Shown here one piece after another: positions 8,136-59,665 of a stretch of 59,665 nt of DNA. Origin of the DNA: a virus. The stretch lies in IMG/VR virus record IMGVR_UViG_3300042691_008532, positions 1 to 59,665 of that record, one strand, 5' to 3'. The position numbers were made by a program, and so were the translations under genes. Position 1 is the stretch's first letter; every line of letters begins with the position of its first letter. The notes beneath the pieces are model-generated. The model was not told the DNA's origin, ran no database searches, and was given only the letters and a program-made list of their open reading frames with translations.

Positions 8136-8145
8136 AAAATAAAAA

Positions 8146-8478
8146 ATGACAAACAAACAAATCGTTCATATAAGCATGGTTAACTCTTTTAACCTGATAA
8201 CAGAGCGCAACACGTTAGAAGAGATTCAAGAGTCAAACATAACATTATTCGCTCATTCTCCTGAGGATGACATTACATATGAAACTTTAAAGATGATTAT
8301 AGATTACTTTGAATCAATAGAGATGTATGAATATTGTTCTGATTTGATAGAGTATCTCAATCTGAATTTTAAAGAAAACGGTACAAGAATTGGAAGCTGT
8401 GAATGTAAATACCCTGTCATAAAAAGGTACAGCAGGAAAGTGTCCTGCGATTTCTGTAATAAAAGATTATTCTTATGA
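8146..8478 (+). CDS. Hypothetical protein with C-terminal zinc-binding-like cysteines, 110 aa
   Basis: The first ~80 residues are acidic and helical. The last ~25 residues hold CECKYP followed by CDFCNKR, four cysteines in two pairs that would fit a small zinc finger. Its stop overlaps the SF2 helicase start by four bases (ATGA), so it may be a cofactor of that helicase. No named family recognised. Confidence 0.7.
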   Translation: MTNKQIVHISMVNSFNLITERNTLEEIQESNITLFAHSPEDDITYETLKMIIDYFESIEMYEYCSDLIEYLNLNFKENGTRIGSCECKYPVIKRYSRKVSCDFCNKRLFL

Positions 8479-9947
8479 TTGAAAGAAAGTTAGGGCATAC
8501 AAACAAAGAGATGTTACAATACTGTGAAAGAATAAAAAAGATTGTATTATCTAAGACAAAAGTAAAAGTCGGGAAAGGTAAAAATATTGAGTATTGTGAT
8601 ATGTTAAAGTATAAGACTGACGAATCAATTATAAATAATATTATTGAGAGTCATAATTACTACAAAAAACTATACGAAGAAGAAATGAAAGCAGCAGATG
8701 CTCTTACTAATGGAGTCATTCAGTATAGAGATTATCAGAAAGACATCATCAAGGAAGGCGCAAAGATTATCGGTGAGCATGGCTTCTTATATCTTGCGAT
8801 GGAGGTGCGTACCGGTAAGACGCTCACAAGTCTTGGCATTGCTGCGACGATAAAGAGCAACCGTGTGCTGTTCGTTACAAAGAAGAAAGCTATATCAAGC
8901 ATCGAAGCGGACTACGAGAAACTTAATCCTCCATTCGCATTGACGGTCATCAACTACGAGAGCCTTCACTTGGTAATGGATAACGAGAGGTGGGACTTAA
9001 TTATTTGTGATGAAGCACACAGCATGGGCGCATTCCCTAAACCGAGTGGAAGGGCTGAGTTGGTTGCAGAGGTGATAAGAAAGTACAGGCCACGAGTAAT
9101 ACTGTTATCAGGTACACCAACACCGGAGTCGTACTCGCAGATGTATCATCAGGTGTATGCGATACCAAACAATCCGTTCAGGGAGTTCAAAAACTTCTAC
9201 AGGTTTTGCGATAAGTATGTAAACGTAAAACAGCGCAAGATAAACGGCCTGATGGTCAACGATTATAGCAGAGGGCACGACAGTATCCTGAAGCAGATGG
9301 AGCCATTCACGATTAACTATACGCAACAGGAGGCAGGGTTTGTAGCTGAGACAAAGGAAGAAATACTTGAGGTGGAGATGAAAGAATCAACCTATAAGTT
9401 GATTAAAAGACTCAAGAGCGATTTGGTTATTGAAGGAAAAGAGGAGACCATCTTGGCTGACACACCGGTTAAACTAATGATGAAGGTGCATCAACTTTGC
9501 AGCGGAACAATAAAGTTTGAGAGTGGCAACTCAATGATATTGGACTTAAGCAAGGCCGAGTTTATAAAGAGTCGCTTTGCAGGATGCAAGATTGGTATCT
9601 TCTACAAATTCAAAGAAGAATACAATGCACTCAAGCAGGTGTTTGGTGATGAATTAACATCTGATTTAAGTGTCTTTGAAGACACGGACAAAAACATTGC
9701 GCTGCAGATTGTATCGGGTCGTGAAGGTATCAGCTTAAAGCAGGCAGACTATTTGGTGTACTACAACATAGACTTCAGCGCCACGAGTTATTGGCAGAGC
9801 AAGGACCGGATGACAACAAAGGAGCGTCTTGAGAATCAGGTATATTGGATTTTCTCAAAGGGAGGTATCGAGAAGGACATCTACAAGGCTGTCACGAAGA
9901 AGAAAGATTACACAATCAATCATTTTAAAAAAGATTTTTATGAGTAA
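8475..9947 (+). CDS. SF2 (SNF2/DEAH-type) helicase
   Basis: 490 residues with the SF2 motif set: Q-like YRDYQKDII (~77-85), Walker A MEVRTGKT (~109-116), motif Ia-like VLFVTKKKA, motif II CDEAHS (~178-183), motif III SGTPTP (~212-217), motif V-like IVSGREGISLKQAD, and motif VI YWQSKDRM, which has Lys-Asp-Arg in place of the usual QxxGRxxR. The architecture matches phage SNF2-like helicases often placed near VRR-NUC nucleases, as here. It likely remodels replication or recombination intermediates. Palindrome copy 2 lies in its coding sequence at 9670-9685. Confidence 0.85.
   Translation: MIERKLGHTNKEMLQYCERIKKIVLSKTKVKVGKGKNIEYCDMLKYKTDESIINNIIESHNYYKKLYEEEMKAADALTNGVIQYRDYQKDIIKEGAKIIGEHGFLYLAMEVRTGKTLTSLGIAATIKSNRVLFVTKKKAISSIEADYEKLNPPFALTVINYESLHLVMDNERWDLIICDEAHSMGAFPKPSGRAELVAEVIRKYRPRVILLSGTPTPESYSQMYHQVYAIPNNPFREFKNFYRFCDKYVNVKQRKINGLMVNDYSRGHDSILKQMEPFTINYTQQEAGFVAETKEEILEVEMKESTYKLIKRLKSDLVIEGKEETILADTPVKLMMKVHQLCSGTIKFESGNSMILDLSKAEFIKSRFAGCKIGIFYKFKEEYNALKQVFGDELTSDLSVFEDTDKNIALQIVSGREGISLKQADYLVYYNIDFSATSYWQSKDRMTTKERLENQVYWIFSKGGIEKDIYKAVTKKKDYTINHFKKDFYE
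9670..9685 (+). repeat. 16-base palindrome, copy 2 (inside the SF2 helicase gene)
   Basis: GTGTCTTTGAAGACAC. It is the only asymmetric copy whose centre (TTTGAA) is in the opposite orientation to transcription. It encodes part of SVFEDTD, so the reading frame differs from the copies at 16782 and 50983. Confidence 0.9.
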
Positions 9948-19674: not shown

Positions 19675-19692
19675 TGTTATTTTTTATGAGTA

Positions 19693-21477
19693 TTACAATT
19701 CAGGTTCTACAGCCATCCCCCCACTATTATCATTTACGAACTTTTCAACGTCTTCCTTAATCTTTTCTCCACGCTCTCCAAAAGCCTTAGAAGTATATGT
19801 AAAAGTTTTCCCGTTAGGGGCGGTCACTAAAATAGTATTACCAAAACGACCACCCTTATCTTCTACTTTAAATCCTGCAGGTAAAGATGACTGTAAGTTT
19901 TTTGAGGCTATTGACGATTCAAGACTAACTGCTGTTGAAGGCATAACATAATTAACAATAGCAGTAGCTGTTTCTCCTTGTCTTGACGAAACAATGCCTT
20001 TGTACTCTTCTTTACTGAGTCGTCCAAATCCTGAACCTCCTCCTCCTGCCATCATAGCTTTTTTCCTATCTACAACACCATGCAACTCCACACCTGCTGC
20101 AGAAAAGTCTCCAAAATTAACAGGATTGCCACTTGCGTCAAGATAACTAATAGGTCTGTTTTTCTTAGAGTCTTTATATCTTAATAAAATTTTACCGGGC
20201 TGAGACATATCAATTGCTACCAATCCTTCTTCTTTAGCCATAGGAGTTCCTAATAAAATATCTGCAGCTGCTTTCTTTTCAGCAGCTGTTTTACCTGTAT
20301 ATAATTGATTCCATGCACCTGAAGCTAATTGTTGTATTTTTTGTTTATCACCTCTAACAGCCTCCCATTCAGAAGGCTGTCTGCTCTCTTGTAATTGCGC
20401 TTGACCGGTTGCATTTTGTTTTTGAATCATATCATATTTTGCACGAACCTCGTTTCTCATAAATTCATTAGAAACCTTTATTTGTTCTTCATTAAATTCG
20501 GGCATCGGTCTTCCCGTTGCAGGGTCAACCTTTATTAACACCTTCTCAGGATTCGCTTTAGCATCTGCGGCATCATATGTAAACGTATATTGCTTCCCGT
20601 TTGGAGCAAACTTCTTACTATTAGTAAGCACAGAAAGTCTATTAAAAGGATTTGCAAGAGACGCACTTATCATTTGATTCTCTGCATCTATGAACTTGAA
20701 CATTATACTTTTTGTCTCCGGGTCTATGTCAACTCTTTTTGTAATATCTTCAACAGATGTAATAACACCACCTCTTGATAAAGTACCAAAAACAATACTT
20801 GATGTTTCCTCTTTGCCTAACGAATTAGCAAATGCATCGGTAACAGCATTTGTATTAAATCTATCATATCTACCTGCTATATTATTTCTTAATGCATTGA
20901 TAGTAGTAAACTCGTTAGGGTTTTTGTTCATTGTAAAAACCTGCTTACCATCAACTGTCTGCATTTCTCTCATAGCAACACTAACCGTTCCGTCAGTTGG
21001 ATTGATATACAATTGAGACTTAGTAAAGTCTCCAAACTTCTCAGCTTGACCATTTAACCAAATCTCAAAATCTTGCGAATCATCTTTCTTATATCGTTCC
21101 ATCTTATCGGCATAAGATGTATTAAATTCTTTAACAAGGTCAAACGCTTGCTTTGTTCCATCGATAAGATTCTGACGGCTGACAATATAATCCTTTAGCT
21201 TCATGGCACCGGACTTTAATAGTCTTTCCTGCATCAGCATATACTGAGAGGCATTATCTCCATATTCTAAAGCCCATTGGTTTATCCCTTTATGCTGTCC
21301 TTGCGGGGCATTAGCCAACTCTATACCAAATCTTCTTGTTGCCTCGTCAATAGCCGCCTTCTTTTCCTCTCGGATACGCACTTCATTTTGAAGCATATCC
21401 GTCATGTTCTTGCCGACCTCAGCCCAATTTATCTGAGAGTCCGCACTTCGTTCTGCATATTTATAGTATGTTGCCAT
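19693..21477 (-). CDS. Internal virion protein, 594 aa
   Basis: Soluble, helical N-terminal ~170 residues (NWAEVGKNMTDMLQNEVRIREEKK) followed by mixed alpha/beta with several Asn/Asp-rich loops and a Gln/Ala-rich segment at ~350-380. No enzyme motif. Its place between the Ala-rich ejection-type protein and the giant protein is that of the internal (ejection) proteins in crAss-like and T7-like podoviruses. It ends 19 bases before the giant gene. Functional naming is by position only. Confidence 0.65.
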   Translation of the reverse strand: MATYYKYAERSADSQINWAEVGKNMTDMLQNEVRIREEKKAAIDEATRRFGIELANAPQGQHKGINQWALEYGDNASQYMLMQERLLKSGAMKLKDYIVSRQNLIDGTKQAFDLVKEFNTSYADKMERYKKDDSQDFEIWLNGQAEKFGDFTKSQLYINPTDGTVSVAMREMQTVDGKQVFTMNKNPNEFTTINALRNNIAGRYDRFNTNAVTDAFANSLGKEETSSIVFGTLSRGGVITSVEDITKRVDIDPETKSIMFKFIDAENQMISASLANPFNRLSVLTNSKKFAPNGKQYTFTYDAADAKANPEKVLIKVDPATGRPMPEFNEEQIKVSNEFMRNEVRAKYDMIQKQNATGQAQLQESRQPSEWEAVRGDKQKIQQLASGAWNQLYTGKTAAEKKAAADILLGTPMAKEEGLVAIDMSQPGKILLRYKDSKKNRPISYLDASGNPVNFGDFSAAGVELHGVVDRKKAMMAGGGGSGFGRLSKEEYKGIVSSRQGETATAIVNYVMPSTAVSLESSIASKNLQSSLPAGFKVEDKGGRFGNTILVTAPNGKTFTYTSKAFGERGEKIKEDVEKFVNDNSGGMAVEPEL

Positions 21478-21497
21478 TGAGAAATTTTATAATTAGT

Positions 21498-22358
21498 TTA
21501 TTTAACTAATGGAGGATTAAAAAGTAAATCTTCTCCTAACATATATTTTGGAGAAAACTGCGTAAGCCCCTTTCGCTGAGTGAATAATCCAACCTGCTGC
21601 GCTCCAATCTGACGGATAATTTTCGGGTCTATCTTACTCATAAAGTCTTGGTATTGACTCCTATTCATACCTGATACCTTGCTAAAATCAATACCATCAA
21701 CGGTACCCATCATACCTATATCTGCTTGTAGCTGCTCAGGAGTCATACCTGCTTTTTGAGCAAGTTGCTCTGCAGCGTTAAACTGTTTAACAGCCGCTGA
21801 CTTCTGATATAATGGAGCAAGAGAAGCAACCTGACTTCCTAAACTCACAACACCCTCCATACCTTGCTGCATAGCCTGAGCACTAAGTTCAGCTGCATTA
21901 GCCGCAGCTAATTGAGCACCTGCAACTTCTTCCAAATCTAATTGAACACCAATATCCCTGAGCCTGCCCTCTTCCTGTGCGGTAAGTCTCTCAAGACCGG
22001 CCATCTCTTGACCCATGGCTGTTCTAACTCCGGCCTGACCTTCCTGCTGTGCCATTTGTATACGTCCTGCTGTGGCTGCGGCACCTCTTTCACTCTCAAC
22101 ACCTGCTTGTATAGCCTGAGCGCCCTGAGATAGCAATGCCTCTCTCTCTAACTCGTATGGTTCTTTTTGAATGGCTAATTTCTCATAGACATTAATCTCA
22201 AGTTTTTTACGAGCCTCCTGCATAGCCTCCTCTGCATCACGTTCAGCTTGCTTCATGGCTCTCTTTTGTTTGCCTGCCTGAGCAAACGACATTCCGGTAG
22301 ATGCAGCTGTTGCCGCTATGCTTACTCCTGCTAAAATAGCTGATGTTGCAATTGCCAT
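21498..22358 (-). CDS. Ala/Gln-rich internal virion (ejection) protein, 286 aa
   Basis: N-terminal hydrophobic segment AILAGVSIAATAASTGMSFA (residues 7-26), then long amphipathic, Ala/Gln/Glu-rich helices (~30-170) and a less helical C-terminal ~100 residues. This layout is typical of small podovirus internal proteins that line the ejection channel, comparable in character to T7 gp14, without claimed homology. It starts two bases after the upstream GNAT-like gene ends. Confidence 0.65.
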   Translation of the reverse strand: MAIATSAILAGVSIAATAASTGMSFAQAGKQKRAMKQAERDAEEAMQEARKKLEINVYEKLAIQKEPYELEREALLSQGAQAIQAGVESERGAAATAGRIQMAQQEGQAGVRTAMGQEMAGLERLTAQEEGRLRDIGVQLDLEEVAGAQLAAANAAELSAQAMQQGMEGVVSLGSQVASLAPLYQKSAAVKQFNAAEQLAQKAGMTPEQLQADIGMMGTVDGIDFSKVSGMNRSQYQDFMSKIDPKIIRQIGAQQVGLFTQRKGLTQFSPKYMLGEDLLFNPPLVK

Positions 22359-22359
22359 A

Positions 22360-22770
22360 TTATAATTTTTTAATCATTTCACTTGTGTATGAATCGCCCT
22401 TTATATAACCGAGTTCCTCATACGTATTTATAAGACTCTCGTTCTTTATCAAGGCGTAGACATATGAACTGCCTGCATCTTTGCATATTTTCGTCAAAGA
22501 AGAAACCAATAACATAAGTGCCTCTTTTCTTTTTGGCTTATCCCTGTATTCTCTGTTTGAGATAATCCAATCAACCCATGACACCTTCGAGTTTGTCAGA
22601 TACATAAACCCGGCACAAACAGGTGTATCGTTATCGTAAACAATAATGCCGCCTTTGCCATTATTCGGAAGGAAATCTTTATTAGGAGGAACCCATCCCC
22701 ACTGCTGCCACCAACCCATAAGAGTCTCTTCGTAATCAACTTCGTTCAGTTCTCGTATAAAAAATTCCAT
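22360..22770 (-). CDS. GNAT-like acetyltransferase, 136 aa
   Basis: A short GNAT-like fold: an N-terminal WWQQWGWVPP block, GKGGIIVYDNDTPVCAGFMYL (beta4), a central SWVDWIISNREYR strand/helix with KPKRKEALMLLVSSL in the acetyl-CoA-binding helix position, and the C-terminal YALIKNESLINTYEELGY motif typical of GNATs. Similar small acetyltransferase-like proteins occur among structural genes of many phages. The substrate is unknown. A TACATTTG element lies just upstream (22778-22785). Confidence 0.65.
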   Translation of the reverse strand: MEFFIRELNEVDYEETLMGWWQQWGWVPPNKDFLPNNGKGGIIVYDNDTPVCAGFMYLTNSKVSWVDWIISNREYRDKPKRKEALMLLVSSLTKICKDAGSSYVYALIKNESLINTYEELGYIKGDSYTSEMIKKL

Positions 22771-22777
22771 ATTCCTA

Positions 22778-22785
22778 CAAATGTA
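22778..22785 (-). promoter_or_regulatory. Possible -7 promoter element (minus)
   Basis: TACATTTG on the minus strand, eight bases before the GNAT-like start codon at 22770. No clear TTTG at the -33 distance, so it is a weak candidate for a start of the internal-protein sub-operon. Confidence 0.4.
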
Positions 22786-22791
22786 TTGAAT

Positions 22792-23595
22792 TTAAGGAAA
22801 ACTTTTCATAACCTCTGTCTGTACAACAAACAATTCCACCTTACTTGTGGATGAGTTTGTAATATTAAAAATACAATAATGCCCCAACACGCCATGCGAC
22901 TCAGCTACAGAATTTTTGATATACAAAAAGAATGCATCCTGAATCGGTATTGGAACAGTTCCGGGTATTGATGTATTAATTGTTAATTGGTTTATGTTGT
23001 TTGGGAGGTCTACAGTTATAGCCGTAACCCTGCCGGCAAGAACAGGAGTAGTATAAGGAGGCAAGGAAAAGTATAAAAGGTCGCCAATGCTGATAATACT
23101 GCCAATTGAAATGGTAAGCGGAAACTTAACAATATTTCCACCTGTTACTTGGGAACTTCTTCCAATACCATTTACGCTTCTCAATGCAAGTTCGCCAATT
23201 GAATTATTGCGAACAAAAGCAAAAAATGCAGCCTCCTTTTTCTCAAACCAATTCGCTTCAATAAATCCTGAAAACTGTAAGTCAGTCTGTAATGTAACGT
23301 CCCATTTGGCATCTCCTTCCAAATTTATCGTCTTAAATAATTTGTTCTCAAGAGGAGATGCATTGAAAACACTTTGAAGTGTAGCCGGAGTAAAGGCTCC
23401 TGCAGGGTTTCCAATCTTTATAAACCAAGGCGTATAAAAAGTATTTCTACTTTCGTTTACATTGTGTCGATACAAGTCCCCGCCTTTGAAAGTGTAAAAA
23501 TAATTATTCATTCCTATCATCCAATCAGGATAATAAGAATAAAAAGAAACCCATCCATCAACCATGTCACTATATGATAGCGTATAATTTGCCAT
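22792..23595 (-). CDS. Tail/virion structural protein, 267 aa
   Basis: Beta-rich with many aromatic residues in the first 60 positions (YTLSYSDMVDGWVSFYSYYP, then MNNYFYTFKGGDLY). This start is common to proteins near the tail hub of Bacteroidota podoviruses. No enzyme motif. It lies directly downstream of two other tail proteins in transcription order. I infer a tail or tail-fiber-anchoring role. Confidence 0.6.
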   Translation of the reverse strand: MANYTLSYSDMVDGWVSFYSYYPDWMIGMNNYFYTFKGGDLYRHNVNESRNTFYTPWFIKIGNPAGAFTPATLQSVFNASPLENKLFKTINLEGDAKWDVTLQTDLQFSGFIEANWFEKKEAAFFAFVRNNSIGELALRSVNGIGRSSQVTGGNIVKFPLTISIGSIISIGDLLYFSLPPYTTPVLAGRVTAITVDLPNNINQLTINTSIPGTVPIPIQDAFFLYIKNSVAESHGVLGHYCIFNITNSSTSKVELFVVQTEVMKSFP

Positions 23596-23606
23596 AGTTA
23601 TTTATT

Positions 23607-24359
23607 TTATAGACACCCTGCATCACAAGATGTAAATATATCTAAGTTTAATGTTGTCCCTAAATCAGTATTCAACACAGTATAAAGTGTACTTGTTAAT
23701 GTAGTTGAAGATACCAAACAAGAGGAATCGTTAATAATTCCTAAACAAATTGCATTAGCCGTATCACTTGGAGATGTACACCCGGTTGCAGTTGCTACAA
23801 CACCAATTACATCATCTTCGTATACTGTGTAGGTCCCGCTTGATGATGCACTCCTACTCTCAACAATAATACCATTTACATACAAATCCATTGTTCCTAC
23901 TAAATCTGTATCTGTAAAAGTCCAAGATAATGTAGCAGACGTTGCAGGGCAATTTCCTATAGCTATTACAACACCAAAACTATTAACTTCAAACCAATCA
24001 TTCCCCCCTGAAATAGAACCTGATGCTCTATAAAATCCCTCTTCAAGAGTTGTTGTTGCACAGGAATCAGTAGTTATAGTATCCCCAAGGTTTATAATAC
24101 CCGATGGGCTATAATAAGTTTCTGTCTCACCCAACAAACAACACGTAGCAGACGATACAGCCGATACGCTTGCATCAAATGGTATATATGAAGGGCATAT
24201 CTGTTGTGGCAACAAAACACCATCAAGCTGCTGCCTAACAATAACACCTTCAGCGTAATATCCGTCAGCAGAAATAGTAGTCAATGATGCATCATCAAAA
24301 ACAGATGTTGCTGATGCGAGAGAAGGAGCGTTTAAATAATATATTCCACTTGTTGCCAT
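23607..24359 (-). CDS. Ig-like/beta-sandwich virion protein, 250 aa
   Basis: Start set at MATSGIYYLN (24359), after the stop of the preceding gene at 24371; the longer in-frame start at 24389 would overlap it. Thr/Ser/Ala-rich, low in charge, with TLSWTFTDTDLVGTMDLYVNG and DDVIGVVATATG patterns characteristic of Ig-like or carbohydrate-binding beta-sandwich modules. Cysteines are unusually frequent for a cytosolic protein. Probably a tail or head-surface decoration protein that binds the host surface. Confidence 0.55.
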   Translation of the reverse strand: MATSGIYYLNAPSLASATSVFDDASLTTISADGYYAEGVIVRQQLDGVLLPQQICPSYIPFDASVSAVSSATCCLLGETETYYSPSGIINLGDTITTDSCATTTLEEGFYRASGSISGGNDWFEVNSFGVVIAIGNCPATSATLSWTFTDTDLVGTMDLYVNGIIVESRSASSSGTYTVYEDDVIGVVATATGCTSPSDTANAICLGIINDSSCLVSSTTLTSTLYTVLNTDLGTTLNLDIFTSCDAGCL

Positions 24360-24370
24360 ATAAAATTTTA

Positions 24371-27300
24371 TTAAAGAGGTTCGGTACAATTACAACAAAC
24401 ATCTATTATACTTTCACTTGAATAACAAAGTTCAACAGGAACAGATTCTCTAAAGTCCCATATTAAATATAAATAATCTTGCAATCCCGGAACAGTAAAG
24501 TTTGCGAAATTATACGCACCTCCTCCTTGATTTGGAGTAGCCGTAGTTGCTAATCCTAACAAAGTATTAATATCTAACGGGTTATTGTTATATAGTGTAT
24601 CTGATACATGATACCTAAACGAGTCACTTGCAGGGTCAAATACAAATGTATCTGTAGCAAACTTATTAGAAATCAAACTAACAACACTTCCTGCGGGTGG
24701 GAATCCACCTGACCCTACAAAACTTGTTGCTGCAGTATACTTCGATACAAGAGGAGATGTTGTCCCTGAAGCAAAAGTTACAAGACTTGATTGCAATGGA
24801 GACGTATATGAGCCGCTTACATACCTATATTGGGTATGTACGGTTTGGCCTGAATCAAAATCATTAGTCAATACTATCTGAACAACTGTTAAAGATTGAG
24901 CCTGACAACAATTTGCAAGTACATTTAAGACAATATCACCTGTATAATTTATTGTAATGGATACAGTCTCAGCAGTAATACTATCCTTGTCAAAGGTAAT
25001 TACACCACTCTCATTAATAAACCCTGTAGAATCTGTTACTCCATTATAATCTATTGCAATCTCAAAAGACCCCCCTTCGCTTATTGAAACAACTGTATAT
25101 TCAATGTCAGCAATACCTATGGTTGGGCCTAAATCAACACAATACTCAATTGTTTTAATTTCTTCTTCTAATGTTGTTAATGTAAATGTTTGAGATATAC
25201 CACATTCTAAACACTCAGGATTATAAGGAAGACCAACTTCATTGCTTGATAAAACATACTCATTCATGTAAGGGTCAAACCCTCCAAGTTTCTGAGTATT
25301 AAAAGACTCGTTGAATGTATCTCTGAACCAAGTTCTCATGTTCATGTCTGAGATAACTTTCAATTGGTCTTGCGTGTATGAATCGCCTCTTAATTGCAGA
25401 ACGGCTCCACGCTTTATATCGGTGAAGTATCTGTCGTAACCCCATTGCGTGTAACTCTCCGGATTGAAACTGATACCATACTTCTCTGTCCGGGCAATCT
25501 GTGTTCCCAATACCTGAGGTACTGATGCAATCACACCGCCACCGGTAGAGTCTGAAATCAAATTCTTGTCGGCCAATACGTAAGAGATTTTATCCTCCTG
25601 AAGAACAAGAACATCAGTCTGTCTTCCATCAATCACATAAATATTGCCAAACGACGGCTCTAATACTTTATAGTTAAGAAGACCTAAGTTAAACTCATTA
25701 AGTTTATTAACGTTTGATTCGGCACTATAAACACCACTATATGTAATATCGGCAAATCGGTCAGCTTCTTTGTAATCCTGAGCCGACACACTTGTAACTC
25801 TATTGCCAAGATTAAATGAGTTCCCAACAATAGAGTCCCTTATCTTATAACTTTCTGCTCCGTTTCCAAACGCAAAACAATTAAAAAACTTAGTATCTAT
25901 TATTGCGGGGACACCATTTGGTATATCTTGGTCTTGTATATTACCCATGTGATTGCCATCTACAATAGCAAAAGACATTTCGTTTTCAAAAAACACATCA
26001 GGCAATGCATCACTTGGAAGAGTTTCAAATATCAAAGTTTTATCAGAACGAAACACAGTTATGTTTACCTCTATATTTGATGCACGAGACAAAGGATAGT
26101 TGATACCATTACAAGGCAACGTTCCTGTTACCATCAATTGCAATTCATTGGTAGTAGTGTTTCTATAAAATCTATAATAGTTAGTACATAAAGCAGTTGG
26201 TATATCTCCTAATGTATTCGTTATGCCGGATACAAATTGATTATCCGGAACGCACTGACCTGCTCCTGCGTAACGTATGCCATCATTTAAAATTTGTTGC
26301 ACGTTATCACCAACAAACCAATCATACATATTATCGTATGAGTTAGAAGATATTAATGTCTTCTCCAATAAGTTTCTTCTCTCTTCACAATTATTACCAA
26401 CACCACCTCTCGACTGTTTAATACTTAATACTATCCTGCTTCCTGCAGGAATATTATAGTCAGAAAATTCCCACGTAGGATTCAATGGGTCAAAACCCGC
26501 AGTCCTCACAGTATTCATTGGATAATATAAGATAGGGAACGGGCCTCCTCTTGGAGAAGTTTTTGTTATTTTACCCGGTGCAATAATTGCCAACTCATCC
26601 TGAATTATATTGAAGCTGTTTGGATTAATCTTCATGTATACACCTGCAGGAATTGGAATTAAAACAGAAGGGTCTAATACACTTGGTATCTCAATAAAGT
26701 TTGAAGCCTGAGCAGACTTCTCAAGAACAGTAGCATACACGCAAGATGTTGTAGCACCGTTTGAATCTGCCTTTACAATTAACCTGTCTCCCACTTCAAT
26801 CTTTCTTGCATTTTCTCCTTCAAGAAGAAAGTATGCATTATTGGTTAATGGGTCTTGGAAAAATATGCTGCAATAAATTGTCTCATAATTCTCTTGGTCA
26901 GGCTTAATTACAAATTTGTATCGTGTAGCCCAAGCCGGAGGCAATTGTGTTGGAGGGATTGTTACCTGAATAGAGTTTTTAAAAGAAGAAAACCCACAAG
27001 GAATATGTTCTGTATTATTTGGACTTACGAGAGCCGTAGTTGCTCTATTAAAATCATCCATATACACAATGCCAATCTCGTAATCTCTGTTGCTATGTAA
27101 ACTTTGTGGATTAGCAATCTCCTGAAATGTAGCTTCTGCAAAAGAAACATCATAGTATTCATATACCGTTTGAGTAGGAGTAATCAAATTGTCTACGTAT
27201 CTCATTGCCGGAAACTGAAATCCTATTATACTGCTTGATGGTGATGTTACTATTAGAATAGGCTGATTAACTGCGCTTATCCCACTGCCATTTTTTGTAA

Positions 27301-28810
27301 GCGTATCCAAGTTATTAGGAACCGCACAATTAAATGAATCAGTAAATGTTATTCCGTTACAGGCATTTGCAACAGGCTCAATATTAGCAGTAGTACCTAC
27401 TGCATTTTGAAATTCTACACTTGTAGCTAACTCATATACAGATGAATAATTCTTTGATAAGAAAAACGAAAAGTCAAGTTGAAGGTCATCTGTTGTCTCA
27501 GTAGGGAAAGGAGTTTGTCCGGAGAATTGTGCGTGGCCTATGGTAAGTGAAATACTTATTGCAGAACCTGCAACCAAATTCTGACCTGCTAAGTCAATAG
27601 TAAGCGTAGCATTAGGAATACTCACGCTTCCATTGATGGTATAATTGCCTGAACTTAGCCCGTCTGTTATACTCGTATTACCAATAGGAGTAGAAATTAA
27701 TTCGGTAGTGTACTCAAACTTAACAGGAGCACCAAATATATCTATCAAATCATAACCCTCTACATAATTGCCATACATTAAACGGTTGCCCATAATTGTC
27801 TGAGCCTTCGCATAACGAGGGACATTATCATATAACCTTAATAATTCAGCTTCTGATAATATTGTAAAAATCTTGCTGTTAGTAAAGGTATATTGATACT
27901 CTGTATTATCGGCAAGTCCTAAGTTTGACTTATCAAGTTTTTCAATAATCTTTATTATGTTCCCATCAGCTTTCTTAAATAACAAGTCAACACCAACAAC
28001 AAGCGGACCGCCTGAGTTATAAGTAATAATTGCTGAGTTGCAAAAATTGGTCATGCCTTCGTTCAAAAAACTATCAATGCTAAAGCTAAAAGGATTAGGC
28101 ACGAAAGCAGGCTGAGACCATTGAGATGTTGCACTATATTCACCATCAGCATATTTGTACCTATAAGCAAAACAAATAAATCGTGTATTCAAATAGTTCT
28201 CTTGTCCGTTTGTCACAAAAGGTTGAACTTGAGGCGATTGCACAGGTGGCTTCTTGATAACAAGTAAAGACTCTGCAGATATTTGGTCAATATTTAATAT
28301 TGGATTTGGATAGTTCCTTTTTATATTAATACACCTCGGTGCATTATAATCATCGGTAAAAAATAACAAGTCTTCCAATATGTCAACACCGGTGATGAGA
28401 TAATTTGGGTTAAAATTTAAAATTGTATTCACGCCTCCTCCATCATCTATAGAAACAACAAGGTATGTAAGGATGTTTGTAAACACATTATAAGAAACAA
28501 TCAAATCAAGTTTGCCTGTATTACCTACAGGAAAATTATTATCGTGAACAAACCAATAAATGGTTTCTGTCGCACTGTCTTGTATGGCACCAATACATCT
28601 TGCTGTTGAACTAAGTGGCGTTCCATCAATATAAGCAAGAGATGTCAGTGGAATATTTCCTTTTGTATTCTCAATAACACCAATTTCAGAGTTCTCAGTA
28701 GAACCCATCCTAATATTCATAGCATCCACATACTCGCCTTCAGGAAGTAGTCTTTCATCAACTACTTTATTCATTTTTCCCGCTATGAAATTCCTTGTAA
28801 TTTTTGCCAT
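24371..28810 (-). CDS. Large tail hub/stabilization protein, 1479 aa
   Basis: Starts MAKITRNFIAGKMNKVVDER then LLPEGEYVDAMNIRMGS, an N-terminus I associate with the large stabilization or tail-hub protein of crAss-like and related podoviruses. The first ~1150 residues look like beta-propeller/beta-sandwich virion sequence with many Asn and Tyr. Residues ~1160-1479 are Thr/Ser/Cys-rich Ig-like repeats (SISEGGSFEIAIDYNG, VSITINYTGDIVLNV), probably exposed. It is placed between the ring/neck proteins and other tail proteins. Function by analogy only. Confidence 0.7.
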   Translation of the reverse strand: MAKITRNFIAGKMNKVVDERLLPEGEYVDAMNIRMGSTENSEIGVIENTKGNIPLTSLAYIDGTPLSSTARCIGAIQDSATETIYWFVHDNNFPVGNTGKLDLIVSYNVFTNILTYLVVSIDDGGGVNTILNFNPNYLITGVDILEDLLFFTDDYNAPRCINIKRNYPNPILNIDQISAESLLVIKKPPVQSPQVQPFVTNGQENYLNTRFICFAYRYKYADGEYSATSQWSQPAFVPNPFSFSIDSFLNEGMTNFCNSAIITYNSGGPLVVGVDLLFKKADGNIIKIIEKLDKSNLGLADNTEYQYTFTNSKIFTILSEAELLRLYDNVPRYAKAQTIMGNRLMYGNYVEGYDLIDIFGAPVKFEYTTELISTPIGNTSITDGLSSGNYTINGSVSIPNATLTIDLAGQNLVAGSAISISLTIGHAQFSGQTPFPTETTDDLQLDFSFFLSKNYSSVYELATSVEFQNAVGTTANIEPVANACNGITFTDSFNCAVPNNLDTLTKNGSGISAVNQPILIVTSPSSSIIGFQFPAMRYVDNLITPTQTVYEYYDVSFAEATFQEIANPQSLHSNRDYEIGIVYMDDFNRATTALVSPNNTEHIPCGFSSFKNSIQVTIPPTQLPPAWATRYKFVIKPDQENYETIYCSIFFQDPLTNNAYFLLEGENARKIEVGDRLIVKADSNGATTSCVYATVLEKSAQASNFIEIPSVLDPSVLIPIPAGVYMKINPNSFNIIQDELAIIAPGKITKTSPRGGPFPILYYPMNTVRTAGFDPLNPTWEFSDYNIPAGSRIVLSIKQSRGGVGNNCEERRNLLEKTLISSNSYDNMYDWFVGDNVQQILNDGIRYAGAGQCVPDNQFVSGITNTLGDIPTALCTNYYRFYRNTTTNELQLMVTGTLPCNGINYPLSRASNIEVNITVFRSDKTLIFETLPSDALPDVFFENEMSFAIVDGNHMGNIQDQDIPNGVPAIIDTKFFNCFAFGNGAESYKIRDSIVGNSFNLGNRVTSVSAQDYKEADRFADITYSGVYSAESNVNKLNEFNLGLLNYKVLEPSFGNIYVIDGRQTDVLVLQEDKISYVLADKNLISDSTGGGVIASVPQVLGTQIARTEKYGISFNPESYTQWGYDRYFTDIKRGAVLQLRGDSYTQDQLKVISDMNMRTWFRDTFNESFNTQKLGGFDPYMNEYVLSSNEVGLPYNPECLECGISQTFTLTTLEEEIKTIEYCVDLGPTIGIADIEYTVVSISEGGSFEIAIDYNGVTDSTGFINESGVITFDKDSITAETVSITINYTGDIVLNVLANCCQAQSLTVVQIVLTNDFDSGQTVHTQYRYVSGSYTSPLQSSLVTFASGTTSPLVSKYTAATSFVGSGGFPPAGSVVSLISNKFATDTFVFDPASDSFRYHVSDTLYNNNPLDINTLLGLATTATPNQGGGAYNFANFTVPGLQDYLYLIWDFRESVPVELCYSSESIIDVCCNCTEPL

Positions 28811-53136: not shown

Positions 53137-54762
53137 TTATTGCTGCTCGTAAGACCGAGCCATTGTGATAATTGCGTTTGTACTGAGAATAGTGGTTGCT
53201 ACGCTTACTGCGTTCTGCAGGGCTGACCGTGTCACCTTCAACGGGTCAATAACACCCATACCAATCAGGTCTCCCATCTCTCCCGTCTTCAGATTGTAAC
53301 CATGACCCATCGGAACCTCGCCTTTGTAAACCTCACTTGGTTTAAGTCCCGCATTGGTCAGTATCTGCTGAAACGGAGCCATGAGTGCATTCCTTAAAAT
53401 GTCAAGAGCAGCAGTATACTCCCGGCTCATACCATCGTGACCAACTAAAAATGCACTCTCCTCAAGCAGTGCTTTACCGGCACCGGGTAAGATACCTTCC
53501 TCTAACGCTGAACGGACAGCACATACTGCATCATCAACTCTATCATACAACTCCTTCTGCTCAAGGTCAGTCTGACCGCCCACAAAAATAACACCGATGC
53601 CACCACTGAGCGAAGCAATACGCTCCAAAATGAAGTCTTTGTCCGCTTTGCGTGTCGCTTGCTTATGTGCGTCCCATAATTGAGCCACTCTCTCCTCCAC
53701 CTGTGCCTCGTCACACTTAGCCGAACTGCGGATAATAACCGTTTTATCTTTTCCAATAATCACTTTTGCTGCATGGCCTAAGTCTCCATAGTTGATATGG
53801 CTTAAGTCGTCACCTGTTTTCTCGCTGAAGTAGGTAGCACCAACGCTGATAGCGATGTCCTGCATCAACTCATGCTGCTTGTAACCAAAATTAGGAGGAG
53901 GAATCGCCACCACTTTCAGGTTTCCTTTCACGGTATTGGCCGCAAGCGTATTTACAACATTTGTATTGCACGGAGATATAATCAACAGCTTCTTACCTTC
54001 TGTAATAATAGGCTTCAGCACGTTCTCAATCTGCAGGATATTTGAAATCTCAGTGTCAGCTACCAAGACCATCACATCCTCAAACACGCACTCATCTTTT
54101 TTGGCATCATTAATGAACAAAGGGCTCAGATACCCTCTGTCAATCTTCAATCCCTTGGTCGTCTCTGCATAAGTCTCAGCAGTTTGGCTGCGCTCAACCG
54201 TTACGATGCCGGTCTTGCCAACATCTTTATACACCTCAGAAATAATTTTACCTATCTCACGGTCATTGTTCGCTGAAATAGAGGCCACGTCTAAGAGCAT
54301 GGAGGCACTAACCTTTTTTGCTCTACGCCTTAACTTGTCCACCACCTTGTTACTCATGTCCACCATATGCCTCAACACCTCCGTCCGGTTCATATCCTCT
54401 TTAATATGCTCAAGACCTCCAAGAACTAACCCTTCTGTCAACACAATAGCAGTTGTAGTTCCATCACCGGCTGACGTTGCCGTCTTCTCTGCCGCCTCCT
54501 TCATCATCTTAACCGCAAGGTTCTCCGATGGGTCAAGCAGGTCAATAGACTTAGCAACAGTCACACCATCTTTGGTCACAGTGATGCCATGCGTGTGATA
54601 CGGACTCTCAATCAGCACCGTATTGCCACCCGGCCCAAGCGTTGACTTGACCGCCTTCGACATCTTTACCACTCCATTGATTAACTTTTTACGGCCTGTA
54701 TCGCCAAAGTCTAAGTTTTTTGGAGAATATCCCACTCCTGAGGTCTCAACCATTTGATTCAT
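53137..54762 (-). CDS. groEL: Phage GroEL-like chaperonin
   Basis: About 541 residues from MNQMVETSGV (54762; ATG at 54753 is also possible). The longer ORF to 54834 would run through the promoter and is rejected. Conserved chaperonin features: TLGPGGNTVLIE (ATP P-loop region), TKDGVTVAK, AGDGTTTAIVL (catalytic Asp), ISANNDREIG, EGILPGAGKALLE and NAVSVATTILSTNAII. The apical domain is divergent and the C-terminus ends in SYEQQ, without the Gly-Gly-Met tail. It has its own promoter and is co-transcribed with GroES. Phage chaperonins are known in large phages, and one in a ~60-kb genome is unusual. Confidence 0.9.
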   Translation of the reverse strand: MNQMVETSGVGYSPKNLDFGDTGRKKLINGVVKMSKAVKSTLGPGGNTVLIESPYHTHGITVTKDGVTVAKSIDLLDPSENLAVKMMKEAAEKTATSAGDGTTTAIVLTEGLVLGGLEHIKEDMNRTEVLRHMVDMSNKVVDKLRRRAKKVSASMLLDVASISANNDREIGKIISEVYKDVGKTGIVTVERSQTAETYAETTKGLKIDRGYLSPLFINDAKKDECVFEDVMVLVADTEISNILQIENVLKPIITEGKKLLIISPCNTNVVNTLAANTVKGNLKVVAIPPPNFGYKQHELMQDIAISVGATYFSEKTGDDLSHINYGDLGHAAKVIIGKDKTVIIRSSAKCDEAQVEERVAQLWDAHKQATRKADKDFILERIASLSGGIGVIFVGGQTDLEQKELYDRVDDAVCAVRSALEEGILPGAGKALLEESAFLVGHDGMSREYTAALDILRNALMAPFQQILTNAGLKPSEVYKGEVPMGHGYNLKTGEMGDLIGMGVIDPLKVTRSALQNAVSVATTILSTNAIITMARSYEQQ

Positions 54763-54784
54763 ACTTGATTTTATTTGTGATGTA

Positions 54785-54816
54785 CAAATATAGTCAGTCA
54801 ATAGTACATTAACAAC
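54785..54816 (-). promoter_or_regulatory. Promoter of the chaperonin operon (minus)
   Basis: On the minus strand GTTG (54816-54813), a 20-base spacer, then TATATTTG (54792-54785) followed by TACA. Its position decides against the long GroEL start. Confidence 0.7.
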
Positions 54817-54840
54817 CTTTTTTAGAAACACCATTACAGA

Positions 54841-56017: not shown

Positions 56018-56650
56018 ATGAGTAATCTACTTGCAATTGAGTCAAACTTTTTAAACCTTGCCGAAATTAAGCAAGCGTTAAACCTGACTGAAATCAGGAC
56101 GGTAAGCCGCAATCTTAGCAATGCTAAGAAAAAGAAATTTGAACAGTCTTTAGTCTTATCCAAACTTGTTGTGAAGGCCGTTGAGTGGTTTCACTCAGAA
56201 GAGGGCAAAGCAAAGTGTGCAGAAGAGGGCATTGAGTGGAGCAATGAGGAAATCGGGAACAAAGTATTCGGGTGGCAAAAGTCGTATTTCTACAAAGTAG
56301 TAAAAGCAGGCAAGTTGCCTGAAACAACCGTTGAAACCTTTGTTGCAAAGTGCAATGAAATTGAGGCACAAGGCGAAGAGGCAAACCGTTCCATTGAAGG
56401 TTTATTGAAATTTGCGAAGCAGGTGGAAAGCGCACAAAGCGAAGGTGGACAAGATAGCGAAGATAGCGAAGCAGCGGAAAGCGCACAAGTTGAAACAAGG
56501 GTACAAACCGTTTTTACCATGACTTACAAAACCGATGCAGGTAACGTGTCCGTTCGTGTGGATGCAAACGGCAATGTAAAAACCACTAACACAAGCGAAC
56601 AAATTCAGGCCGCAATTAATTTTCTTACTAACACTTTAAATAAAATCTAA
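56018..56650 (+). CDS. Hypothetical protein, possible DNA-binding regulator, 210 aa
   Basis: The N-terminal ~110 residues are helical and include IEWSNEEIGNKVFGWQKSYF then YKVVKAGKL, compatible with a helix-turn-helix of the type in which 'IG...G.S...Y' spans the turn and recognition helix. An acidic, Ser/Gln/Glu-rich linker (~135-160) leads to a small beta domain (QTVFTMTYKTDAGNVSVRVD). First gene after the promoter; its stop and the amidoligase start overlap as TAATG, so the two are expressed together. The regulator idea is tentative. Confidence 0.65.
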   Translation: MSNLLAIESNFLNLAEIKQALNLTEIRTVSRNLSNAKKKKFEQSLVLSKLVVKAVEWFHSEEGKAKCAEEGIEWSNEEIGNKVFGWQKSYFYKVVKAGKLPETTVETFVAKCNEIEAQGEEANRSIEGLLKFAKQVESAQSEGGQDSEDSEAAESAQVETRVQTVFTMTYKTDAGNVSVRVDANGNVKTTNTSEQIQAAINFLTNTLNKI

Positions 56651-57561
56651 TGAGCACAAGTACACAGGGCATAGTATATGGGATGCATGGATACGGTTTA
56701 AACCGTTACGGTCGCAGAGTCTCAAGGGGTGCAATACAGGGTTACCATGACAAGCCGCACCCGTTATTTCTCAATAAAACAGCTTTTAGGGCTGACATTG
56801 AAGGGCTTAAAAAAGTAACGCAGAAGGCGGCAATAAAAATCGACGGGAGCGAGTTTACATCTCGTTTCACTATCGGCATGGAGGTTGAAAAAAACCAATT
56901 GCACAGGGGCGCTGTGAGAGAGTATGAGTTATTATGCGGTTTTGAGCGTGACGGGTCATGCGGCTATGAGGCTGTCACCCATATCCTGCCTTTGCTCCCA
57001 TCGGGCAAATGGAGGACGAAGGTTTACGATATGATGCACAAAGCTGAGCGTATAATTGATGACCGTTTCAGCCCGTCAGATAAGCGTTGTGGCGGCCATA
57101 TTACGGTTGGTGTTGATGGTATGACAGGCTCACAATTGAGAGACCTTATAAGGGTTAATGCAGGTATACTGTATGCAATGTTCCGCAATCGGTTAAAAAA
57201 CGGCTATTGCTGCTACAACAGCCGTATGCAGGATGCACAAAGCTGTGCTAATTGGCACAGTAAATATCAGGTTTCACTTGCAAAAGACTATTGCTTAGAG
57301 TTTCGCTTGCCTTCACGCTTTGAGAGTGTAAAACAGATGATGAGACGCTATGAGTTGATGTATGAATTAGTAAATTTTAGCGTGAACAAGCCAAACGGCA
57401 AGTATGAAGACTTTCTTAAAATTATCCGTCCCATTATTGTATCAATGTATAACGGGGATGTAACGAAGGCAGAAGAAATTTTATCCCTTTCTAAAGAGTT
57501 CAGGACGTATATTTTGAAAGGAACAATAACAGATGCTATACGGCCTTATTTATACCTGTAG
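56650..57561 (+). CDS. Amidoligase_2-like (COOH-NH2 ligase, glutamine-synthetase fold) enzyme
   Basis: 303 residues. Motifs of the Amidoligase_2 type: FTIGMEVEKN (GxExE, 76-80), ERDGSCGYEAVTHILPL (Asp101, Glu107), CGGHITVG (147-154, the C/G-x-H-x-H/T-V block) and CLEFRLPSR (215-223, the E-x-R end motif). Together these form the metal/ATP and substrate site of glutamine-synthetase-like ligases, which join a carboxylate to an amine using ATP. Comparative work on this family links it to GAT-II and GGCT-like domains, both found here in one protein (345-1469). The substrate is unknown: protein, peptidoglycan, polyamine or modified base. It is translationally coupled to the upstream gene and is followed by a hairpin and hammerhead B. 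Confidence 0.8.
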   Translation: MSTSTQGIVYGMHGYGLNRYGRRVSRGAIQGYHDKPHPLFLNKTAFRADIEGLKKVTQKAAIKIDGSEFTSRFTIGMEVEKNQLHRGAVREYELLCGFERDGSCGYEAVTHILPLLPSGKWRTKVYDMMHKAERIIDDRFSPSDKRCGGHITVGVDGMTGSQLRDLIRVNAGILYAMFRNRLKNGYCCYNSRMQDAQSCANWHSKYQVSLAKDYCLEFRLPSRFESVKQMMRRYELMYELVNFSVNKPNGKYEDFLKIIRPIIVSMYNGDVTKAEEILSLSKEFRTYILKGTITDAIRPYLYL

Positions 57562-57574
57562 TTGAGCAAACGGG

Positions 57575-57590
57575 GTGTCTTCAAAGACAC
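57575..57590 (+). repeat. 16-base palindrome, copy 8 (hairpin upstream of hammerhead B)
   Basis: GTGTCTTCAAAGACAC, extended to a 10-bp stem by GGG/TCC with one G-T pair (57572-57593). It starts 10 bases after the amidoligase stop and abuts stem III of the hammerhead. Confidence 0.9.
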
Positions 57591-57593
57591 TCC

Positions 57594-57644
57594 GCTGTCT
57601 CAGGGTGTGTGCCCTGACTGATGAGTTCAAAAGAACGAAACAGC
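57594..57644 (+). ncRNA. Type III hammerhead ribozyme B (canonical)
   Basis: Stem III GCTGT (57594-57598) with ACAGC (57640-57644). Cleavage is expected after C57599 (a GUC site). Stem I TCAGGG/CCCTGA (57600-57605 with 57612-57617), loop TGTGTG. Core CTGATGA 57618-57624. Stem II GTTC/GAAC (57625-57628 with 57633-57636), loop AAAA. GAAA 57637-57640. All conserved positions fit, and the whole strongly resembles the satellite tobacco ringspot virus ribozyme in layout. The ATG of the next small gene is 22 bases beyond. Confidence 0.95.
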
Positions 57645-57666
57645 AAACTAATAAAATCAAATTAAA

Positions 57667-57772: not shown

Positions 57773-58333
57773 ATGAGACAGGTGACCTTAAATGTTTTAA
57801 CGGCCTTTTTATCAGGCCGCACATTAAAAGCAGGCAACACAAAAACAGATGGCCAAAGCGTTTGGTTGCATGGCAACAAAATTATTGAGCGAAGGGATGA
57901 CGGTATATGGATAACCAATGCAGGGTGGAATAGTGCAACCACTAAGGAGAGGTTAAACGGGTTGCAGGGCGTAAATATAAGGCAGAGAAACGGTGTTTGG
58001 TTTCTGAATGGTATACCATGGAACGGAGATTGGGTGAATGTTAGAGACTATGAGCAGGGCTCACAATATGTTGCAGAGACAGTAAGCTATGAGCATGAGT
58101 TTGATGTTACGAGCGAGTGGATGAATGCGGGATACAGTAGGCCAACCTATTTTGTGTTTCACACGTTGGTGGAAAGTGAGAGAGAGGCGGTGGAAAAGCT
58201 GCTGAGAGACCATGGAATCGAGAGTAAGCGGATGGAATCAGACACTGATGGTGTATACCGTCCTAACTATTTTGTAATCGTTCATCCTGACAAACATAAA
58301 GAGGCGTTAGATATTCTTAACAATCAAAATTAA
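57773..58333 (+). CDS. Conserved-type phage hypothetical protein, 186 aa
   Basis: Start at MRQVTLNVLTAFLSGRTLKA (57773) rather than 57713, which would overlap the membrane-protein gene. The N-terminal ~85 residues carry a motif widespread in phages: NTKTDGQSVWLHGNKIIER, WITNAGWNSATTKERLNGL and WFLNGIPWNGDWVNV. The C-terminal half has RPTYFVFHTLVESEREAVEK and RPNYFVIVHPDKHKEALDIL, an internal pseudo-repeat with R-P-x-Y-F-V. Function unknown. Confidence 0.7.
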   Translation: MRQVTLNVLTAFLSGRTLKAGNTKTDGQSVWLHGNKIIERRDDGIWITNAGWNSATTKERLNGLQGVNIRQRNGVWFLNGIPWNGDWVNVRDYEQGSQYVAETVSYEHEFDVTSEWMNAGYSRPTYFVFHTLVESEREAVEKLLRDHGIESKRMESDTDGVYRPNYFVIVHPDKHKEALDILNNQN

Positions 58334-58338
58334 ATAAC

Positions 58339-58566
58339 ATGAATCAGAACGTTAAAGTTGTGGGTGGTATCGTCTACCTGCTTGTTACAGAGAAAGCAAA
58401 AGAGGTATTCCAAAGTGGACTGTTTGATGTGTACAAGTTGCACAATGATAATTCGGAGAGTTTATGCGAGTCGTATGCAGACATAAACGATGCGTTGGAG
58501 GTCGGCCTTGACCTTGGTATTGAGGTTGATTTGCTTAACGACATAGTGAAAGCGCTTATTGGTTAA
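58339..58566 (+). CDS. Hypothetical protein, 75 aa
   Basis: Starts with a beta strand (VKVVGGIVYLLVTEKA) then an acidic helical half (DINDALEVGLDLGIEVDLLN). Five bases after the previous stop. This type of short protein occurs near the WITNAGW-type protein in other phages, in my recollection. No function known. Confidence 0.65.
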   Translation: MNQNVKVVGGIVYLLVTEKAKEVFQSGLFDVYKLHNDNSESLCESYADINDALEVGLDLGIEVDLLNDIVKALIG

Positions 58567-58582: not shown

Positions 58583-58598
58583 GTGTCTTTAAAGACAC
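58583..58598 (+). repeat. 16-base palindrome, copy 9 (symmetric; upstream of hammerhead C)
   Basis: GTGTCTTTAAAGACAC, a perfect palindrome. The stem extends outward as GCG/TGC (58580-58582 with 58599-58601), which uses bases that also belong to stem III of hammerhead C, so the two folds compete. Confidence 0.9.
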
Positions 58599-58651
58599 TG
58601 CTGTCCTAAGATGAGTATCTTAGCTGATGAGTTCAAAAGAACGAAACAGTA
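58599..58651 (+). ncRNA. Type III hammerhead ribozyme C
   Basis: Stem III TGCTGT (58599-58604) with ACAGTA (58646-58651, one G-T pair). Cleavage is expected after C58605 (GUC). Stem I CTAAGA/TCTTAG (58606-58611 with 58618-58623), loop TGAGTA. Core CTGATGA 58624-58630. Stem II GTTC/GAAC with loop AAAA (58631-58642). GAAA 58643-58646. Stems I differ in sequence from copies A and B but keep pairing, which is covariation within one genome. Start codon 20 bases beyond. Confidence 0.95.
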
Positions 58652-59141: not shown

Positions 59142-59171
59142 CAAATTTTATAACAATCAAAATCAAATCAA

Positions 59172-59426
59172 ATGACGACTAAAATTTGGCTTAGAGGAGG
59201 TTATAAAAACTTAAAACCAACAGATACGGTTAATACTTGGAAGGCCGTCGAATCGTTTACTGTTAGTAACAATTTAAGACCATGCCTTATTAAGCAGCAA
59301 GGAGGTTATTATAAAATAGAGAAAGACGGAGTCTTAACCTTTGTAACTGAGACGCTATACTCAATAACGTTTGAAGAGTTATACAGAAAACTTAAAGACC
59401 ATAACAATCAAAATCAAATCAAATGA
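59172..59426 (+). CDS. Hypothetical protein, 84 aa
   Basis: Basic N-terminal half (TTKIWLRGGYKNLKPTDTVN), beta-rich core (YYKIEKDGVLTFVTETLYSI) and a helical tail ending in NQNQIK, which is the translated AATCAAAATCAAATCAAA leader of the next gene. It overlaps that gene by four bases (ATGA). Family unknown. Confidence 0.65.
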   Translation: MTTKIWLRGGYKNLKPTDTVNTWKAVESFTVSNNLRPCLIKQQGGYYKIEKDGVLTFVTETLYSITFEELYRKLKDHNNQNQIK

Positions 59427-59644
59427 CACAAGAACAAATGAAAATTGAAATCGAAAGAAAAGAAACGGTACAGGATGTAATTGACCGCTTGCTTTACCTT
59501 CCTGCTGATAAACTTGCAAAGTATAAGCACTTCCTTGACACGTTGGTTGAACTATACCCTATTGACGTGAGGGTGGTGGATGGCGTAAGGATTTATAACG
59601 TTACAAAAAACAAATTAGATGGCAAAAAAGTACAAGATAGTTGA
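59423..59644 (+). CDS. Hypothetical protein, 73 aa
   Basis: A helical N-terminal half (MTQEQMKIEIERKETVQDVI) and RLLYLPADKLAKYKHFLDTL, then a beta hairpin. The C-terminal codons lie in the terminal repeat, so in the circle its end overlaps the 70-residue gene at 23-235. Function unknown. Confidence 0.65.
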   Translation: MTQEQMKIEIERKETVQDVIDRLLYLPADKLAKYKHFLDTLVELYPIDVRVVDGVRIYNVTKNKLDGKKVQDS

Positions 59645-59665
59645 GATTAAAAAGCCTAAGAATAT
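59597..59665. repeat. Terminal direct repeat, right copy (circular contig)
   Basis: Exact copy of positions 1-69. It contains the first codons of the 70-residue gene that is annotated in full at 23-235. Confidence 0.95.

Follow-up and report, generated by a model that had tools for sequence, protein, structure and literature searches.

The window, by which we mean the whole stretch of viral DNA analyzed here, is the 59,665-nt record IMGVR_UViG_3300042691_008532. Its bases 1–69 recur as 59597–59665, and because of this 69-base end repeat, the assembly is circular or terminally redundant. Both genes of interest, ORF 56650–57561 (303 aa) and ORF 345–1469 (374 aa), are present on one strand (+), and since the window ends join, the second starts ~2.38 kb downstream of the first. 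This agrees with a sequence-only reading of the locus, which had placed a fusion gene about 2.4 kb onward on the same strand, across the circle junction. That reading had also taken the first gene for an Amidoligase_2-type ligase and the second for a GAT-II/GGCT fusion, linked the three activities in one amide-bond pathway, and suggested structure prediction as a check. The locus comprises the following features:

1–69, no strand: direct repeat identical to 59597–59665, circle junction (repeat comparison)
345–1469, + strand: GAT-II/GGACT/zinc-ribbon fusion protein, 374 aa (Pfam, Foldseek)
345–839, + strand: predicted class-II glutamine amidotransferase (Ntn) domain; Cys2 nucleophile, R61, H74, N89-G90, and D102 invariant in alignments
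843–1142, + strand: predicted GGACT-type cyclotransferase domain; Y169-G170-T171-L172, E237, Y243, and Y262 invariant
1362–1424, + strand: C-terminal zinc ribbon, CxxC...CxxC; C340, C343, C357, and C360 invariant
1479–1494, + strand: hairpin GTGTCTTCAAAGACAC after the GAT/GGACT gene (pattern match)
1497–1547, + strand: type III hammerhead after the GAT/GGACT gene, predicted cleavage 1502/1503 (motif match, covariation)
56018–56650, + strand: conserved 210-aa protein with no Pfam family; its stop codon and the ligase ATG share one base
56650–57561, + strand: predicted divergent glutamine-synthetase-like amidoligase, 303 aa (AF2 model, Foldseek, hhalign; no Pfam hit itself)
57575–57590, + strand: hairpin GTGTCTTCAAAGACAC after the ligase gene (pattern match)
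57592–57646, + strand: type III hammerhead ribozyme after the ligase gene, predicted cleavage 57599/57600 (Rfam Hammerhead_3, covariation)
58583–58650, + strand: third hairpin-hammerhead element, after ORF 58339–58566

Homologues of the 210-aa protein occur in 55 of 58 loci and adjoin the ligase gene upstream in nearly all of them. Farther upstream, on the opposite strand, window positions 53137–54834 (−) encode a GroEL-like chaperonin (Cpn60, E = 8.9e-59), which is found in 45 of the 58 loci. Window positions 57773–58333 encode a Kyanoviridae Gp96 domain protein (E = 3e-10), homologues of which precede a further 18 hammerheads in relatives. The leader AAATCAAATCAAATG is repeated just before many start codons (320–346, 59150–59176, 59401–59427, and others); it looks like a Bacteroidota-type translation leader, hinting at the host phylum.

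Taken together, the structure model, profile–profile comparisons, and motifs indicate that ORF 56650–57561 encodes a glutamine synthetase (GS)-like amidoligase too divergent for Pfam Amidoligase_2 (PF12224). The GxExE (G76, E78, E80), DGS...E (D101, S103, E107), CGGH (147–150), and EFR (217–219) motifs, which the sequence-only reading had pointed out as GxExE, D-G-S...E, C-G-G-H, and E-F-R-L, are invariant in 42–43 homologues. The invariant residues that correspond to PF12224 motifs are G76, E78, E80, D101, S103, E107, H150, Y206, E217, F218, and R219, and the Lys preceding Y206 (KY motif) is absent from the invariant list of the family. The ExE, D-S...E, H, and E-F-R residues correspond by position to those that bind metal and phosphate in glutamine synthetase.

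Conventional profile searches did not recover this relationship: none of the 43 family members matches the PF12224 HMM even at E ≤ 1 or reaches its gathering threshold (22 bits), no member attains any Pfam cut-off, and the window record yields no PF12224 match at E ≤ 10. A sequence search of solved structures with the ligase profile gave no match, and a scan of bacterial genomes found no relative of the ligase; at the sensitivity of that scan, the family looks confined to phages. The sole direct sequence hint was a match to PHROG 2443, “amidoligase enzyme”, for which the best-scoring family member reached E = 9e-4. Profiles were also compared with hhalign, taking as reference eight phage proteins that pass Pfam PF12224. 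The window ligase family scored 85.9% (E = 5.2e-6), rising to 92.1% (E = 6.2e-7) with one divergent relative added, over 183–185 columns with collinear motifs; 30 column-shuffled controls peaked at 2.6%, and the reversed control gave 0.1%. An HMM of the eight reference proteins matches the family with E-values down to 7.6e-7. Two reference residues are not kept, which is why we regard the protein as a divergent amidoligase branch: the second His of HxH is replaced (H150-I-T152; reference invariants H98 and H100), and the third acid of GxExExE is missing (E80-K-N82; reference invariant E37 in 8 of 8 proteins). Given these two absences, the chemistry of the ligase may differ from that of the reference amidoligases. 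Thus, the earlier Amidoligase_2-type assignment is borne out by hhalign (86%–92%), structure matches, and motifs, but the family escapes a plain Pfam HMM search.

Structure prediction returned the GS-like fold for the ligase. The AlphaFold2 model, built from 42 sequences, has a pLDDT of 90.1 and a pTM of 0.90. When it was compared with viral structures (BFVD) using Foldseek, the named matches following close relatives were predominantly amidoligases (E ~1e-6). The PDB matches were led by γ-glutamylmethylamide synthetase (GmaS), followed by glutamine synthetases, and also include YbdK, PafA, and Dop; the best of them (E ~6e-4, TM ~0.3) constitutes fold-level evidence only, and whole-chain TM-scores are low throughout (0.35–0.50 for reference amidoligases and ~0.3 for solved GS). 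We rejected the reading of the ligase as an ordinary glutamine synthetase that supplies nitrogen, because the nearest predicted structures are phage amidoligases and not GS.

Sequence and model predict that the product of ORF 345–1469 combines three parts, a class-II GAT domain, a domain of GGACT type, and a zinc ribbon; the active-site residues to be expected do not vary among its homologues. The GAT-II domain carries Cys2, R61, H74, N89-G90, and D102, presumably the active-site set of a GlmS-type class-II GAT. The GGACT assignment is the stronger at the Pfam level (PF06094, E = 3.2e-21, 76.6 bits against a cut-off of 22.8), and the solved relatives nearest in sequence are the mouse and human γ-glutamylamine cyclotransferases (2.4e-13). 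The same two enzymes are nearest by fold, and the fusion model superimposes on human GGACT (3jub; Foldseek 6.7e-10) with an rmsd of 1.8 Å. The active site of GGACT comprises Tyr7-Gly8-Thr9-Leu10, Glu82, Tyr88, and Tyr115 (PMC2954230); the equivalents in the fusion are Y169-G170-T171-L172, E237, Y243, and Y262, invariant in 32 homologues, so that 7 of 9 active-site residues were both located and found invariant. As for the other half of the GAT-II/GGCT designation proposed earlier, the domain model has GFAT-1 and EgtC, a γ-glutamyl hydrolase, among its matches, but Pfam GATase_4/6 scores for the window protein stay below threshold (18–20 bits; cut-offs 23–27).

To assess linkage, we used 84 viral records retrieved via the ligase, 69 of which extend at least 5 kb past it. 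The fusion lies downstream of the ligase on the same strand in 68 of these 69 records, most of which represent one phage lineage, the loci having been picked for carrying one or the other gene of the pair. The intervening gap spans 0.57–4.88 kb (median 1.96 kb). Nine records without the fusion stop 0–1.8 kb past the ligase, and in the reverse search, full fusion-retrieved records lacked the ligase only where the contig ended ≤2 kb upstream of the fusion. Both genes are present in 58 of 58 loci (L061 being counted on its GAT-only protein), as are several flanking replication genes, whereas the window genes between them are found in 0 to 26; the pair thus outlasts its surroundings. Within the window phage lineage, the two genes are inseparable, and the co-occurrence in related phages expected by the sequence-only reading is nearly total.

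Two records deserve mention in their own right. At 6977–9123, the 61-kb record L061 encodes a second, divergent ligase (402 aa) and, immediately after it, a GAT-II protein that lacks GGCT and bears a zinc ribbon; this ligase lies upstream of the usual one, and the record is without the usual fusion. The second ligase is a bridge sequence to canonical amidoligases. In MW202828, a 574-aa CDS was considered as a Rosetta-stone fusion and rejected: its additional 225 aa match no Pfam family, and an in-frame ATG belonging to the ligase itself follows a gene-end hairpin. The 574-aa CDS is probably a read-through from a neighboring gene.

More compelling than the single-lineage records is Phage C75C1 (OQ984151; 39.5 kb, circular), an independent lineage in which an Amidoligase_2 gene (E = 3.5e-30) is located ~0.85 kb upstream of a relative of the fusion. 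Beyond this case, an amidoligase adjoins or lies near GAT-II in LUZ24, Bas94, RIO-1, MEP402, Tesla, and an Acinetobacter phage, and a LUZ24-type amidoligase relative is present in 302 of 50,697 phage records.

Both genes end in the same hairpin-hammerhead element, as had been read from the sequence, but so does a third one. Hammerhead motif matches number 3 in the window against 0.19 expected, and hairpins 9 against 0.12 expected. Rfam reports no hammerhead in the window at the gathering score; at a permissive threshold, the post-ligase element matches Hammerhead_3 with 43.5 bits (gathering 48.5) and E = 6.7e-8. In the 86 related loci, the core motif matches the coding strand 170 times and the opposite one 6 times, a few of the pattern matches being spurious; a hammerhead follows just 3′ of the ligase stop in 55 of these loci and of the fusion stop in 32. 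About half of the element copies in related loci sit after the ligase or the GAT/GGACT gene. In an alignment of 59 hammerhead sequences, 95.8% of cells are paired (at most 46% in the slid-alignment control), with 254 double changes versus 72 in shuffles, and the elements accordingly display the conserved core and three covarying stems of type III hammerheads. Phage hammerheads bounding single genes were already known (PMC3088659). Because ORF 58339–58566 also ends in a hairpin-hammerhead, the element is not exclusive to the pair; it is a lineage-wide 3′-end device and only weakly indicates a link between the ligase and fusion genes. Further GTGTCTT...AAGACAC hairpins without hammerheads lie at 9670, 16782, 31554, 38647, 50983, and 55799 of the window. 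In L049 (MW202828), the region 17146–28555 contains 14 copies of the perfect palindrome GTGTCGTTAACGACAC, most of them close to the ends of genes and none with a hammerhead, a hairpin of the same kind with a different sequence.

The assignment of amidoligase-containing phage cassettes to peptidoglycan modification reportedly goes back to a prediction by Iyer et al. in 2009. In podoviruses, amidoligase, GAT, GGCT, COOH-NH2 ligase, and ATP-grasp genes have been described as a peptidoglycan-modification cassette (PMC5498523; also PMC11945000 and PMC3890496), conserved among the replication genes of RIO-1, phiEco32, 7-11, PA11, tf, LUZ24, PaP3, and CW02 (PMC5498523), and peptidoglycan action is a proposal even for these known cassettes (PMC5498523). 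None of the papers searched on amidoligase/GAT/GGCT cassettes describes an activity or a substrate determined by assay. The window likewise carries amidoligase, GAT-II, and GGCT together, and phages with this combination having already been described, the combination itself is not new. No window ORF matches a second (COOH-NH2) ligase or an ATP-grasp profile at E ≤ 10, and given the absence of these partners, pathway reasoning based on the cassettes may not be transferable to the window. Since C75C1 has the same fusion protein beside a textbook Amidoligase_2, the window pair is a reduced, divergent two-gene form of the phage amidoligase/GAT/GGCT cassette.

We consider it likely that the two genes are the writer and the eraser or nitrogen-handling halves of one amide-bond pathway in this reduced form, in line with the pathway originally proposed for the ligase, GAT-II, and GGCT, which the near-total co-occurrence and the C75C1 partnership uphold. 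The pathway chemistry is well supported as an inference from the observed folds, active-site residues, and linkage; its reactions, direction, target, and timing would be as follows. Using ATP, the ligase would turn a carboxylate, probably the γ-carboxyl of glutamate or a glutamyl peptide, into an acyl phosphate for coupling to an amine. Release of γ-glutamyl-amine units as 5-oxoproline would fall to the GGACT domain, and the GAT-II domain would hydrolyze glutamine or a γ-glutamyl amide. The hammerheads would cut a polycistronic early transcript just after each gene, leaving a hairpin-capped 3′ end. Following the proposal made for the known cassettes, we tentatively name a host cell-wall or cell-surface peptide, altered early in infection, as the leading candidate among the possible targets. 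A more elaborate scheme, in which the ligase γ-glutamylates a host amine early, the fusion removes or recycles the product, and the hammerheads set separate dosages of the two proteins, seems unlikely.

Nearly as likely a target as a cell-wall or surface peptide would be a protein or a small amine: a tag placed on host or phage proteins, polyamine, or lysine could serve take-over or counter-defence. GGACT is known to act on γ-glutamyl-lysine and other γ-glutamylamines, and the fold neighbors of the ligase include both GmaS, which uses a small amine, and PafA, which uses a protein lysine. Such neighbors, however, do not define the substrate, and no recognizable substrate protein, recruitment domain, or tag peptide adjoins the genes. 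Action on phage DNA or nucleotides, with the ligase coupling an amino acid to a base precursor, would explain the placement of the ligase beside replication genes: primase, recombination, or DNA polymerase genes adjoin in the window lineage, C75C1, LUZ24, Bas94, RIO-1, and MEP402. We nevertheless hold this to be decidedly improbable, as the cassettes assigned to peptidoglycan share the same location (PMC5498523) and no base-hypermodification enzyme was detected among the ten window ORFs scanned against Pfam. It is very improbable that the ligase, although GS-like, has an altered or lost catalytic activity and binds without joining. The loss of the second HxH His and of one acid that the reference proteins have would fit such a role, but ExE, D-S-E, H, and E-F-R, at the GS metal and phosphate ligand positions, are invariant in 42–43 homologues. 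Finally, that the two genes are functionally unrelated and held together by lineage synteny, as the predominance of one lineage and the 58 of 58 conservation of several flanking replication genes might suggest, is the least credible reading, given the turnover of the intervening window genes (0–26 of 58), the recurrence of the partnership in the unrelated C75C1 with a different ligase subtype, and the amidoligase–GAT adjacency in other phages.

Amidoligase/GAT/GGCT sets are common among phages, and if the two genes indeed form one pathway, a natural two-gene version would show its indispensable parts, namely, one ligase, one GAT, and one γ-glutamylamine cyclotransferase. It points to γ-glutamyl-amine chemistry and makes the question of what these sets modify testable with two proteins. 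In addition, the window lineage offers many ribozyme-bounded genes for the study of phage mRNA 3′-end formation.

Compared with known systems, the window resembles the peptidoglycan-modification cassettes of LUZ24/PaP3, RIO-1, phiEco32, and PSA-HP1 in the clustering of a GS-like amidoligase, a class-II GAT, and an AIG2/GGCT cyclotransferase among early/replication genes. It differs from them in having one divergent ligase only, without a detectable COOH-NH2 ligase or ATP-grasp, in combining GAT and GGCT in one protein with a zinc ribbon, and in the spacing of the genes, which lie 2.4 kb apart and each end in a hammerhead. Phage C75C1 shares a fusion protein 45% identical to that of the window over 263 aa, also downstream of an amidoligase, whereas its own ligase is a canonical Amidoligase_2 and its 298-aa fusion stops soon after the GGACT domain. 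With PF12224 Amidoligase_2, the window ligase has in common collinear motifs, the predicted GS-like fold, and the gene partnership, while falling under Pfam HMM detection and lacking the second HxH His and the third acid. Relative to mammalian GGACT (1vkb, 3jub), the phage domain keeps the YGTL, Glu82, Tyr88, and Tyr115 equivalents (rmsd 1.8 Å) but occurs in a fusion with GAT-II and zinc-ribbon parts. As in the phage type III hammerheads described by Perreault and colleagues in 2011 (PMC3088659), several hammerheads bound single genes in a phage transcript; in the window lineage, however, each is preceded by a GTGTC...GACAC hairpin, and copies are found repeatedly after the ligase and GAT/GGACT genes.
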